Assembly: GCA_026390595.1 (NCBI GenBank)
Contig: JAPLFQ010000023.1
Span: 62,001 to 126,000, forward strand
Reading direction: 5' to 3'
DNA: 64,000 bases
Source: Ignavibacteriales bacterium
GTDB lineage: Bacteria > Bacteroidota > Ignavibacteria > UBA10030
The notes below the pieces were generated by a model. It made no database searches. It was given only the letters and a program-made list of their open reading frames with translations, and was not told the DNA's origin. Below are positions 13,773 through 35,354 of this stretch, in pieces. How positions within the stretch are numbered: position 1 is the first letter of the stretch; each line of letters starts with the position of its first letter. The position numbers and the translations under genes are program-made.

Positions 13773-14786
13773 ATGTCCCAAAATAAGATTATTACCCTTG
13801 AACGTCACATCATCGAAGGTGAGCGGGCACACCCGGGCGCAAGCGGGAGTTTCTCGGGACTCCTTCGTGACCTGACACTCGCCATCAAGATCATCTCCCG
13901 TGAAGTCAGCAAGGCGGGGCTCGTCGATATTCTCGGCTCACTCGGACGCGAGAATATCCATGGAGATGAAGTCAAGAAACTGGATATCTATGCGAACGAG
14001 GCGATTTACAAGGCAATGGATCACGGCGGCCACCTGTGCGTGATGGCGTCGGAAGAACACGAGGATGTTCTGGATATCCCTGAACATTATCCGACTGGAA
14101 AGTATGTTCTTATCTTCGACCCGCTTGACGGTTCATCGAATATCGACGCGAACGTCACCATCGGCACGATTTTTTCCCTCTTCAGAAGGGTCAGCCCCTC
14201 CGGACCGGGCTCAATGTATGATTGTCTCCAGCCCGGATATAAGCAGGTCAGCGCAGGGTATGTGATGTACGGTTCGGCAACAATGATCGTGTACACCACC
14301 GGCGACGGCGTGCACGGATTCACGCTGGATCCAAGCATAGGAGAGTTCTTGCTCTCACACGAGAACATCCGCATTCCAAAAAAGGGCAGAATCTATAGTG
14401 TGAATGAAGGTAATTTTCATCGCTGGTCTGACGGAATGAAGAACTATGTCCGCTATCTTCAGGCTGAGGACAAAGCGACCGACCGGCCGTATTCCGCCCG
14501 CTATGTCGGTTCGCTGGTAGGAGACATCCAGCGTACGCTGTTGTATGGCGGCATTTTCATGTATCCGGCCGATTCGAAAAATCCCAAAGGAAAGCTCCGG
14601 CTTATGTATGAAGGGAATCCCATGGCGTTCCTGATCGAGCAGGCTGGCGGACGCGCCACGGACGGAATGCAGCGGATTCTGGATATTCAGCCACAGTCGC
14701 TCCACGAACGAACTCCGCTGATTCTCGGGAGCGAGGAAGACGTTCGGATTGCAGAGGAATTCATTCAGGGGAAGCGGAATCATTGA
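13773..14786 (+). CDS. fbp: Class I fructose-1,6-bisphosphatase
   Basis: A 337-residue class I FBPase, the gluconeogenic phosphatase acting on fructose-1,6-bisphosphate. The metal-binding and catalytic stretch DPLDGSSNID is near residues 116-125, preceded by MASEEHED. Later family motifs include YVGSLVGDIQRTLLYGGIF, then KLRLMYEGNPMAFLIEQAGG. Length is typical. The 131-bp gap upstream shows no clear promoter. The last four bases overlap the next gene. Confidence 0.95.
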   Translation: MSQNKIITLERHIIEGERAHPGASGSFSGLLRDLTLAIKIISREVSKAGLVDILGSLGRENIHGDEVKKLDIYANEAIYKAMDHGGHLCVMASEEHEDVLDIPEHYPTGKYVLIFDPLDGSSNIDANVTIGTIFSLFRRVSPSGPGSMYDCLQPGYKQVSAGYVMYGSATMIVYTTGDGVHGFTLDPSIGEFLLSHENIRIPKKGRIYSVNEGNFHRWSDGMKNYVRYLQAEDKATDRPYSARYVGSLVGDIQRTLLYGGIFMYPADSKNPKGKLRLMYEGNPMAFLIEQAGGRATDGMQRILDIQPQSLHERTPLILGSEEDVRIAEEFIQGKRNH

Positions 14787-19988: not shown

Positions 19989-21434
19989 TCATTCGACTTT
20001 TTCAATCTTGATCGTATTGGTTGTCCCCCTTGAAAGCAAAGGCAACCCTGCCGTGTAGATCACGTAGTCGCCGGATTTAACATATTCCAGCTTCCGAAGC
20101 TCATCGTTGATGCGCTTGAAGGCAGTGTCCGTATCGACAACGAAATCGGGCACTATGATTCCCCGAACTCCCCACACGAGGTTGAGCCGCCTCAGGATCT
20201 TCTCACGGCCCGTGATGGCGAGGATCGACGCTTTGGGCCGGTACTTCGCCGTGTTGATCGCGCTGAATCCGGAGTGCGTGATGACAACAATAGCCTTCGC
20301 ATCAATCTCGTTGGCAATGACACATGCTGCCCTGCCTATTGCATCGAACATCGTGAACTCTTCTGCCGCGCTCATCCTCGCAATATCAAGATGGGGCTGA
20401 TACCGGATTTCTGCCTTCCTGATGATACGATCCATTGTTTGTACCGCTTCAACAGGAAACTTTCCCACAGAGGTTTCGGCGCTCAGCATGACTGCATCTG
20501 CCCCGTCCAGCACAGCGTTCGCAACATCGTTTGCTTCCGCCCTGGTTGGGCGAGGGCTCTCAATCATCGATTCCAGCATCTGCGTGGCGACAATCACCGG
20601 CACCCCCTCTTCGTTACAGAGGCGGACTACCATCTTCTGAATGAGGGGGACATCTTCTGGAGGAAGTTCAACTCCGAGATCTCCCCGCGCAACCATGACG
20701 ACATCCGACTCAGCGATGATCGAATTGATGTCTTCCACCGCTTCGCCTCTCTCGATTTTCGCCACAATCGGGATTCGCTTACCTTTCGGGGCTTCCTTCA
20801 CCAGAAACTCCCGCAAACTTTGTATATCCTTCACTGATCGTACGAAGGAAAGAGCAACGTAGTCAATATCGTTCGCTAGGCCGAATCTGAGATCTTCGAC
20901 GTCCTTTTCCGTAAACGACGGCACGCTCACCTTTACTCCGGGAAGATTCATCCCCTTCTTGTCCGAAAGAACTCCTCCATTCACGACCGTGCACTGAACA
21001 TCCGTATCGGTTTTTGACACCACAGTGAATTTCATTTTCCCGTCATCGACTAGAATCGAATCTCCTGCCTGAATATCCCTGGGCAGCAGTTGGTAGGTCG
21101 TCGAGACGACGTCAGTATCACCGAGTATGTCGCGTGTCGTGAAGGTGAACGTCGATCCCGTATGTATTTCCACGCTCTTTTCCTTCAACCGACCCGTCCG
21201 GATTTTCGGACCGCTCAAGTCCTGAAGAATCGTAATATGCTCGCCTGTCCTGCTGCTCGCCTCCTTGATGTGCTCAATAACCTCCCGGTGCTGCTCACGC
21301 GTCCCGTGCGAGAAGTTCAATCGGGCGACATCCATGCCCGCCTCAATAAGCTTTACGAGTGTGTCCACACTCTGCGATGCAGGACCTATCGTGCAGATGA
21401 TTTTCGTCTTACTGAACCCTGACGATGGAATCAT
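19989..21434 (-). CDS. pyk: Pyruvate kinase
   Basis: A 481-residue pyruvate kinase, the last ATP-yielding step of glycolysis. Seen: TKIICTIGPAS at the N-terminus, NFSHGTREQH, VAKIERGEAVEDI, the MVARGDLGVELP signature and ATQMLESMI. A complete C-terminal domain follows (AIVVITHSGFSA; from about 355), and no PEP-utiliser domain is fused. ATG 21434 overlaps the sirtuin stop by four bases; the frame continues upstream inside the sirtuin gene but without homology. Confidence 0.96.
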   Translation of the reverse strand: MIPSSGFSKTKIICTIGPASQSVDTLVKLIEAGMDVARLNFSHGTREQHREVIEHIKEASSRTGEHITILQDLSGPKIRTGRLKEKSVEIHTGSTFTFTTRDILGDTDVVSTTYQLLPRDIQAGDSILVDDGKMKFTVVSKTDTDVQCTVVNGGVLSDKKGMNLPGVKVSVPSFTEKDVEDLRFGLANDIDYVALSFVRSVKDIQSLREFLVKEAPKGKRIPIVAKIERGEAVEDINSIIAESDVVMVARGDLGVELPPEDVPLIQKMVVRLCNEEGVPVIVATQMLESMIESPRPTRAEANDVANAVLDGADAVMLSAETSVGKFPVEAVQTMDRIIRKAEIRYQPHLDIARMSAAEEFTMFDAIGRAACVIANEIDAKAIVVITHSGFSAINTAKYRPKASILAITGREKILRRLNLVWGVRGIIVPDFVVDTDTAFKRINDELRKLEYVKSGDYVIYTAGLPLLSRGTTNTIKIEKVE

Positions 21435-22183
21435 GGTGTTTTCCCTTGTTGTTGACTGAAGTATGTGACGAGTTGAGGCAGAATTTCCCCCGCTGCCCCC
21501 AGAAGTGTCTCCTGGGCACGGGCAGAGAGTTCGGTATGTTCGCGGTTGATCTGAACAACATATGCTCCATGATCCAGGGCCGTGTGAGGCAATGAGGCGG
21601 CCGGATACACCACAGCAGATGTTCCCACACAAAGAAAAAGGTCACAGCGGCGGGCAGCTTGTTCGGCTATCGAGTATGCCTCCACCGGCAGCATTTCACC
21701 AAACCAGACTACGTCGGGCCGTATCAGTCCGCCGCAATGCGAGCAATGCGGTGCTCCGCTCTTTGCGTCAAGGTCCAGCTCAGAGACGGAGGTTCTGCAC
21801 TCGATGCAGTAGCTGCGCTCGATGTTGCCGTGAAGCTCAACCACAGATTTGTTGCCGGCCCGCCGATGGAGGTTGTCCACGTTCTGGGTCACGAGAGTGA
21901 AGTCGTCAACAGAACGTTCGAGCTCAACGAGCGCACTATGGCCTGCGTTGGGAATGACCTCATGGATCAGTTTCTTGCGATAGGCGTACCACTCCCACAC
22001 AAGGTCGGGATTCCGGATAAACGCCTGAAAGTTCGCCAACTCCTCGGGTTTGAATTTCTTCCACAGCCCGTCCTCTCCGCGAAATGTCGGCACCCCGCTC
22101 TCAGCAGATATTCCCGCCCCGGTCAGCACGCAGACCGACCGGCTCGATTGGATGCGGGCTTTGAGCTCTCCAGATATCGTCAT
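21431..22183 (-). CDS. cobB: NAD-dependent protein deacylase (Sir2 family, class III-like)
   Basis: A 250-residue sirtuin that removes acyl groups from lysine using NAD. Motifs: GAGISAESGVPTFRG, TQNVDNLHRRAG with the catalytic histidine in ELHG, and zinc cysteines CIEC and CSHC. The Y-x-x-R of EWYAYRK corresponds to the Tyr/Arg pair of SIRT5 and E. coli CobB that binds succinyl or malonyl groups, so desuccinylase activity is likely. It is coupled by ATGA overlaps to the acylase gene upstream and pyk downstream. Confidence 0.93.
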   Translation of the reverse strand: MTISGELKARIQSSRSVCVLTGAGISAESGVPTFRGEDGLWKKFKPEELANFQAFIRNPDLVWEWYAYRKKLIHEVIPNAGHSALVELERSVDDFTLVTQNVDNLHRRAGNKSVVELHGNIERSYCIECRTSVSELDLDAKSGAPHCSHCGGLIRPDVVWFGEMLPVEAYSIAEQAARRCDLFLCVGTSAVVYPAASLPHTALDHGAYVVQINREHTELSARAQETLLGAAGEILPQLVTYFSQQQGKTP

Positions 22184-33326: not shown

Positions 33327-34010
33327 TTACGAATTCTTGTTCAACAAGTCCGAGCGACGGGATTGTGTCCGTTCCGCTCTCTGGCTCTGGCGCCACTTTT
33401 CGATTTTGGAGTGATTTCCCGACAGCAGAACATCCGGGACCTTCATGCCGCGATACTCAGGCGGTCGTGTGTACTGCGGTGCTCCCAACAAACCATCCTG
33501 GAATGAATCAGTCAACGCGGATTCGCTGTCATTGAGAACGCCCGGCACCAAACGAACAACCGCATCGACCACCACTGCCGCCGCAAGTTCTCCGCCCGTC
33601 AACACAAAATCGCCGATCGAAAGCTCCCGCGTAGCCAGCGACTTTCTCACACGCTCATCCACCCCTTTGTAGTGCCCGCAGATAAGCATGAGGTTTTCTT
33701 TCAGCGAGAGATCATTGGCGACACGCTGGTTCAACGTTTCGCCGTCTGCAGTCAGAAAAATTATCTCATCATAGACCCGCTGCCGCTGCAGACTCTCGGC
33801 ACACTCGAAGAGCGGCTCCGGCTTCAGAATCATGCCGGCCCCTCCGCCATACGGTGTGTCGTCGATGGTTTTGTGTTTGTCGTGTGCGAATTCCCGCAAA
33901 TCGTGAACGACGATCTGAACTTTTCCTTTGTCCTGAGCCCGCCGGATGATGCTCTCTTGAAGCGGACTCTCGAGGAGCTTGGGCACGCCTGTCACGATAT
34001 CAATGCGCAT
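33327..34010 (-). CDS. trmD: tRNA (guanine-N1-)-methyltransferase
   Basis: A 227-residue SPOUT methyltransferase making m1G37 in tRNA, which protects the reading frame. Seen: [21 protein letters not shown], the substrate loop [24 protein letters not shown] and the AdoMet knot [16 protein letters not shown] 34010 overlaps the rimM stop (ATGA) and begins the family N-terminus; the frame runs a further 40 codons upstream inside rimM without homology. Confidence 0.97.
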
Positions 34011-34510
34011 CACTCCAACAACCCTTCCAGCGGACGAATCACCACTTTCCGACGCTGCACATCGACTGACCGAATAACATCTTTGATCGCCGGGATCAGG
34101 AATTCCTTTTCCCCCTCCACCACAACCCACACATCGTTTGCGGGGAGCTGCATCACCTCCTGCACCGTCCCGACTGGTTCACCCGATTCCGTTTCAACGC
34201 TCATCCCGACAATGTCGTGGATGAAGTACGAACCCTTTTTCGGCATCACCACATCTTTTGCTGCGATGAAAACCAACTGGCTCCGCAGCGAGTCTCCAGC
34301 GGTGCGAGAATCAACCCCCTTCAACTTCACAACGGCCGCCGAGCGTGTCACTCTCACAGCGGTGACGGCATGTTTCACCGCCAGGGACTCATCAATTCCA
34401 ATCCAGACTGTTTTCAGTTTTTCGAAGCGTTGCGAGGTATCGGTGAGCAGTGAGACGTTCAGCTCGCCCTTGAGACCTATGCTTCTGGTGATTCTTCCGA
34501 CAGCAACCAT
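34010..34510 (-). CDS. rimM: Ribosome maturation factor RimM
   Basis: A 166-residue RimM that assists 30S assembly near S19 and the 16S 3' domain. [18 protein letters not shown] at the N-terminus and the PRC-barrel half with [22 protein letters not shown] and [17 protein letters not shown] match the family. It lies between the khpA remnant and trmD, its usual place. Confidence 0.94.
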
Positions 34511-34550: not shown

Positions 34551-34781
34551 TCAGCCTATGATATCGAGCACGGCTTTTTTCCCTTCTTTCGCGGCCACTG
34601 CCCGCAAGAGCACTCTCAAAGCCGACGCCGTACGTCCCTTCTTTCCTATGAGTTTCCCCACATCCGTTTGCTCTACTCTGAGCTTGAAGATCGTCTTGTC
34701 CTCCTTCTCTTCCACCTCCACGACGACCTAATCAGAATGATCAACGAGATGCCTTGCAAGGTATTCCACGAATTCCTTCAT
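34551..34781 (-). pseudogene. khpA: khpA (KH-domain RNA-binding protein) interrupted by an in-frame amber codon
   Basis: Between rpsP and rimM, where KhpA (YlqC) is normally encoded, the minus strand gives ATG 34781 with AGGAGGTG just upstream and a 76-codon frame ending at TGA 34551-34553. Codons 1-17 read MKEFVEYLARHLVDHSD, codon 18 is TAG (34730-34728), and codons 19-76 continue with VVVEVEEKEDKTIFKLRV and the KH GxxG loop LIGKKGRTASAL up to AVLDIIG. Both halves are clear KhpA in the same frame, so only the single TAG breaks it; CAG or GAG would be expected. TAG is used as a normal stop elsewhere here (dapA, dapB, serS). Options are a real nonsense mutation, a sequencing error, or reinitiation at GTG 34721 just past the stop. 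Confidence 0.85.
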
Positions 34782-34910
34782 GATCCACCTCCTGATTAAA
34801 AGACAGGGCCTTGCACATTGCGTACGAAAGCACTCACCCTTTAAACATCGTGGGAAGAAATTCTGTCGAACCTATCGCCGGGGAAGTTTCCCTTCCCCTT
34901 CACGCCCAGC

Positions 34911-35354
34911 TTAGGCCGCGGGCTGCGGAGCGGGTTCGGCTGCGGCGACCGGAGCAGCCTCTGCCGGTTTTTCCGCTGCCTTTTTCTTCTTCTGAACCCG
35001 GCGGCTTTTGCGATCAGCTTCGCGTTGCGCACGCTCGGTCTGCTGCATCTGCCATTTCTCGACGATAACCTGCATCTTGGCATCATCGACACCACGCCGC
35101 ATCAAGGACCAGCGCAGCCAAACTCCCTTTCGCTGCAAAAGCGATCGCACGGTGTCTGTCGGCTGTGCACCTTTTTTCAGCCAATAGAACACCCGCTCCT
35201 CTTTCACAGAAAGGGATATCGGATTCATGTTCGGATCGTACTGCCCCACGGCTTCAATGAAGCGGCCATCGCGGGGAGAACGAATATCCGCAGCAACGAT
35301 CTTGTAGATCGGATGCTTCTTTTTTCCGGCTCTTCGCAAGCGTAACTTTACCAC
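34911..35354 (-). CDS. rpsP: 30S ribosomal protein S16 with C-terminal extension
   Basis: A 147-residue S16. The conserved core (about 1-80) begins MVKLRLRRAGKKKHPIYKIV and includes VGQYDPN and GAQPTDTVRSLL. Roughly 65 further residues form a charged helix and an alanine/proline-rich tail (KKKKAAEKPAEAAP), longer than the approximately 80-residue E. coli protein but usual for Bacteroidota-type S16. It is the second gene of the ffh cluster. Confidence 0.97.
   Translation of the reverse strand: MVKLRLRRAGKKKHPIYKIVAADIRSPRDGRFIEAVGQYDPNMNPISLSVKEERVFYWLKKGAQPTDTVRSLLQRKGVWLRWSLMRRGVDDAKMQVIVEKWQMQQTERAQREADRKSRRVQKKKKAAEKPAEAAPVAAAEPAPQPAA

Follow-up and report, generated by a model that had tools for sequence, protein, structure and literature searches.

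Results

The khpA frame carries an internal stop

The khpA gene of an Ignavibacteriales bacterium (assembly GCA_026390595.1) lies in a 64,000-nt stretch of contig JAPLFQ010000023.1 (positions 62,001 to 126,000), referred to below as the window, whose own numbering is used throughout. The host genome comprises 4.77 Mb in 36 contigs and is 95.67% complete. The gene order at the locus is ffh-rpsP-khpA-rimM-trmD-rplS (Table 1), and khpA occupies the position between rpsP and rimM that had been assigned to it in a preliminary description of this DNA. The minus-strand translation of 34551-34781 reads MKEFVEYLARHLVDHSD, an in-frame TAG as codon 18, VVVEVEEKEDKTIFKLRVEQTDVGKLIGKKGRTASALRVLLRAVAAKEGKKAVLDIIG and the final stop, and the lone amber codon of that description is thus present at 34730-34728. 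The ribosome binding site is as strong as had been claimed: the Shine-Dalgarno (SD) sequence AGGAGGTG before the khpA ATG has an energy of -11.6 kcal/mol with the anti-SD, and an SD energy as good as this occurs at 0.4% of 2886 internal codon positions. The downstream gene rimM is preceded by a separate SD (-6.6 kcal/mol).

Table 1. Features of the khpA locus in the window, and related loci in which khpA is absent
Feature	Position	Strand	Basis or remark
khpA reading frame, 76 codons and final stop, internal TAG	34551..34781	minus	translation, PF13083 match
In-frame TAG as khpA codon 18, in the variable loop that joins helix 1 to strand 1	34728..34730	minus	translation, alignment, predicted fold
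khpA SD sequence AGGAGGTG	34786..34793	minus	ATG begins at 34781
Candidate restart codon GTG (codon 21), 6 nt past the TAG and without SD support	34719..34721	minus	SD energies
rpsP (ribosomal protein S16), upstream gene	34911..35354	minus	
rimM, downstream gene, no internal stop	34010..34510	minus	
trmD open reading frame as listed	33327..34130	minus	TrmD protein begins about 40 codons in
khpA-less loci L095, L096, L097, L098, L179 and L180			genomes G014, G019, G034, G038, G061 and G078

Read through the TAG, the frame matches the KH_KhpA-B model PF13083 over its whole length (positions 1-73 of 73, 83.5 bits, E 4e-23), with one TAG inside the match, which bears out the complete KH domain of the preliminary description. 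The alignment shows GKKG in the GXXG loop. The frame has the KH-II domain with a GXXG loop, the length of about 76 residues and the rpsP and rimM neighbors of a KhpA gene; the uninterrupted reading frame is missing, owing to the TAG. The intact congener KhpA falls below the curated NCBIfam cut-offs (best score 76.6 against 106) and above the Pfam cut-off. A genome-wide search for a second khpA copy returned the locus itself as the sole PF13083 match at E <= 0.001. The predicted fold of the read-through protein (mean predicted local distance difference test score 95.1) places helix 1 at residues 2-12, strand 1 at residues 20-25 and a long helix at residues 47-65, so that codon 18 lies past helix 1 and ahead of strand 1. 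Among solved structures, the KhpA fusion entry 7xqc was matched (E 3.7e-5).

The stop is found in one genome of the order

A KhpA match over the cut-off is present in 83 of 98 genomes of the order, and this genome is the only one with an internal stop. Because only one of the 83 KhpA genomes carries a stop, it is not a conserved feature, and its absence from the close relatives is what a nonsense pseudogene would show. The closest named relatives, judged by congener KhpA, are Ignavibacteria and Bacteroidota metagenome-assembled genomes (MAGs; among 80 loci kept). Codon 18 encodes alanine in all five congeners (GCT, GCT, GCA, GCG and GCG); GCG is two bases away from TAG, and GCT and GCA are three bases away. 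This does not agree with the CAG or GAG that had been proposed as the true codon in case of an assembly error. Across the order the position is variable, with A in nine, S in three, E in three, G in two, N in two, D in two, L in one and K in one of 23 relatives.

Eleven bases of khpA are unique to this genome, and five of them lie within 12 nt at codons 14-18, while congeners have at most two. The permutation p value of this cluster is 0.002, for a window length that was picked after viewing the data. The cluster can be explained by a multi-base event or by a tolerant loop. A template for local sequence replacement around the TAG (21 bases with at most three mismatches, searched in the whole genome) was found only at the site itself.

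Recoding of UAG is not supported

Programmed recoding of UAG, general or specific to this site, would let the frame be read as a whole, and the strong ribosome binding site and the conserved downstream frame are the only observations in its favor. Release factor 1 (RF1) is intact (355 amino acids, 529.5 bits against a cut-off of 423.25), and RF2 is also present. No tRNA with a CUA anticodon was found among 43 tRNA matches over the cut-off in this 95.7% complete genome, all of them typed with ARAGORN after 150 of 154 first-look candidates had been scored; the search for an amber suppressor, suggested in the preliminary description, therefore came back empty. tRNA-Cys and tRNA-Asn are not among the 43 matches either, probably owing to assembly gaps, and a CUA tRNA could likewise lie in a gap. 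TAG ends ordinary genes here: 4 of the 32 genes in a list assembled from the ends of open reading frames (ORFs), and, among non-overlapping ORFs of 250 or more amino acids, 12 of 37 in the window and 9 of 27 at other loci of the genome. The ORF lists are mechanical, and the other loci partly overlap. The intact RF1, the lack of a CUA tRNA among these matches and the ordinary genes ending in TAG speak against general or local recoding, in agreement with the earlier argument against general recoding, and since the TAG is shared by no relative as well, we reject programmed recoding as hardly credible.

The base at codon 18 is probably correct

The stop could also stem from an error in the sequencing or the consensus, or from a minor variant that entered the consensus of a metagenome bin, in which case the real population would carry a sense codon and an intact khpA. 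Several observations are consistent with such an error: conservation is good in the codons that follow the stop, with ratios of nonsynonymous to synonymous substitution rates (dN/dS) of 0.03-0.14 against the five congeners; four of the five congeners are MAGs, so that this genome may be a MAG too; and Cooley and Wright (2024; PMC11017572) describe many internal-stop pseudogenes as assembly errors. The khpA frame resembles those spurious pseudogenes in having a lone internal stop in a conserved gene and differs from them in that the rest of its assembly is stop-free where sampled.

This sampling covered 38 places of the window, aligned with the ORFs of a 60-kb region of the congener G002 over 11,415 codons, all past position 14,495 and with uncovered stretches between them. 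No gene-internal stop other than that of khpA and no frameshift in the window genes were seen in these places. The other stops in the G002 alignments occur at four places, in each case ahead of the start codon of the respective ORF; one of these places partly overlaps an opposite-strand gene and may be a shadow frame. The gene at 21431-22183 is matched by two G002 frames and is whole in the window. Elsewhere in the genome, 173 matches, 57 to ABC transporters and 116 to response regulators, are all free of internal stops. These comparisons speak for a good assembly, with which one wrong base remains compatible. A single misread base would not turn a congener-like codon into TAG, because every congener codon differs from TAG at two or three bases and the neighboring codons have changed in this lineage too; at least one real substitution at codon 18 would be required in addition. 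We consider an error in the sequence a serious but unlikely explanation.

A restart at GTG21 lacks SD support

A third explanation holds that khpA still works, with a restart at GTG codon 21 or low-level UAG readthrough supplying enough of the KH domain. The preliminary description had placed this GTG five bases past the stop; six bases are counted. A gap of 6 nt falls within the range of -8 to +10 nt from stop to restart that is treated as predictive of termination-reinitiation in PMC10666635. The fragment from GTG21 would keep the GXXG loop and the long helix of the predicted fold, a helix of the kind in which PMC6403258 places the dimer contact of pneumococcal KhpA, and the remainder after the stop is conserved.

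The other properties of the GTG argue against this explanation. Its SD energy of -3.0 kcal/mol is equaled or bettered at 44% of the 2886 internal codon positions, and a start-type codon follows equally closely behind 24 of the 76 codons of the khpA frame. The product of GTG21 would be without helix 1 and hence without F4, E6 and L12, which are invariant in 24 aligned sequences. Codon 21 is GTT in the congeners G001 and G002 and GTG in the other three, and the stop that would complete a reinitiation pair is found in none of the relatives. Readthrough has the intact RF1 and the 43 tRNAs without CUA against it. The proposed reinitiation of a 56-residue KH core thus fits as regards distance and is weakened by the SD energy, the commonness of such spacing and the loss of helix 1, and we judge a working bypass improbable. 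Restart at GTG21 may take place as leakage, by which ribosomes would continue toward rimM. It is very improbable that khpA has become a two-piece gene, in which a helix peptide of 17 residues and a KH core of 56 residues from GTG21 keep the RNA-binding function jointly or separately; in that case the position of the break in a variable loop and the clustering of own-lineage changes around it would be its context.

khpA has been lost in relatives

The claim that khpA is normally retained in this cluster is correct, given a match in 83 of 98 genomes, but six genomes show a clean loss. A RimM match was obtained in 89 of the 98 genomes, seven of which have no KhpA over the cut-off (G014, G019, G021, G034, G038, G061 and G078). 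We rejected G021 as a case of a half-deleted khpA and left it out of the loss count, as an NN assembly gap lies inside the gene; at this locus (L089), short N runs make khpA look truncated and rpsP look frameshifted, which is an assembly artefact. With G021 set aside, 6 of 88 RimM-matching genomes have rpsP and rimM as direct neighbors with no khpA in between. The spacers between rpsP and rimM measure 14 bp in G014, 83 bp in G019, 106 bp in G034, 78 bp in G038, 176 bp in G061 and 11 bp in G078. Seven KhpA queries detected no khpA remnant in these six spacers, with the best tblastn E value per query no better than 0.02 and no match in a spacer on the coding strand. The genomes G018, G020, G024, G039, G062, G067, G074 and G087, which have neither a KhpA nor a RimM match and in which the locus may be unassembled, were excluded from the count.

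Several losses of khpA in the order are likely, because the six genomes fall in five genera of four families. Within one genus, G019 is without khpA and G027 has it. The results show that khpA is dispensable in the order, a point absent from the preliminary description, and the tolerated loss in relatives is in keeping with a nonsense pseudogene. The R3H domain, the mark of KhpB, was found in none of the 61 genomes searched in the order, against matches in 6 of 14 control genomes, and in the order KhpA, though common, seems to do without KhpB, its usual partner. In another genome of the order (G011, locus L030), khpA (1495-1722) and trmD (754-1431) lie 63 bp apart with no rimM between them; no RimM match was obtained in the whole of this genome, which points to a possible loss of rimM.

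The lesion is probably young

The conservation of codons 19-76 is compatible with a young lesion, a still-translated 3' part or a wrong base. After the stop, this genome has just two amino-acid changes of its own, D27E and D37E. Over all codons but codon 18, dN/dS is 0.05-0.12 between this genome and its congeners, compared with 0.02-0.07 between congeners, a mild excess that is seen in three of the five comparisons and, at about 53 synonymous sites, may be noise. The terminal branch measures 0.34 substitutions per fourfold site (280 sites in six taxa). A khpA unconstrained throughout this branch would be expected to have gained about 45 replacements at 131 nonsynonymous sites, which bounds the unconstrained period at about 14% of the branch (Poisson 95%).

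We consider it fairly probable that khpA is a young nonsense pseudogene, knocked out very recently in this lineage. Some observations weigh against this. The stop is known from one assembly, of one genome and one strain. The bound on its age is soft: the four unique synonymous changes of khpA after the stop (about 43 sites) lead to about 12 expected replacements and a bound of about 52%, and an eight-taxon tree with poor support gives a branch of 0.075 and a bound of about 64%. Clear decay is also missing from the rest of khpA, and an assembly error or a bypass that works would account for this equally well. Among the three explanations, a young pseudogene is the most likely, followed by an assembly error, and a working bypass is the least likely. 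The observation made in the preliminary description is confirmed, and its interpretation is partly supported.

Discussion

In the proposed course of events, a nonsense mutation would have inactivated khpA very recently in this lineage. Ribosomes would start at the strong khpA ribosome binding site, make a 17-residue peptide that comprises helix 1 only, and be released at the UAG by RF1, so that presumably no full-length KhpA is produced. A little restart at GTG21 may occur and would not be needed. The damage would be tolerated because KhpA appears to act here without its known partner KhpB and because relatives have lost the dispensable gene cleanly between rpsP and rimM.

Young bacterial pseudogenes, as characterized by Kuo and Ochman (2010; PMC2916853), are similar in that they have a disabling lesion without further decay in a gene that is intact or wholly gone in relatives; unlike them, the khpA lesion occurs in a single genome. 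In Streptococcus pneumoniae, according to PMC6403258, cells deleted for khpA are viable and grow more slowly, and the role of the protein in the elongasome runs through the EloR/KhpA complex. Pneumococcal KhpA, a KH-II RNA-binding protein, is comparable in that its loss is tolerated, whereas here khpA is interrupted at codon 18 and the R3H protein (KhpB/EloR) was not found in the 61 genomes of the order.

If the stop is an error, it is a warning against the biological reading of single stops in draft genomes. Most likely, the knock-out of khpA is an ordinary one, in a gene that other relatives have lost too. If the nonsense mutation is real, it would capture at an early stage the loss that khpA has undergone repeatedly in the ffh-rpsP-khpA-rimM-trmD cluster of a group with no recognizable KhpB, and it would help to explain how khpA is lost in the order.
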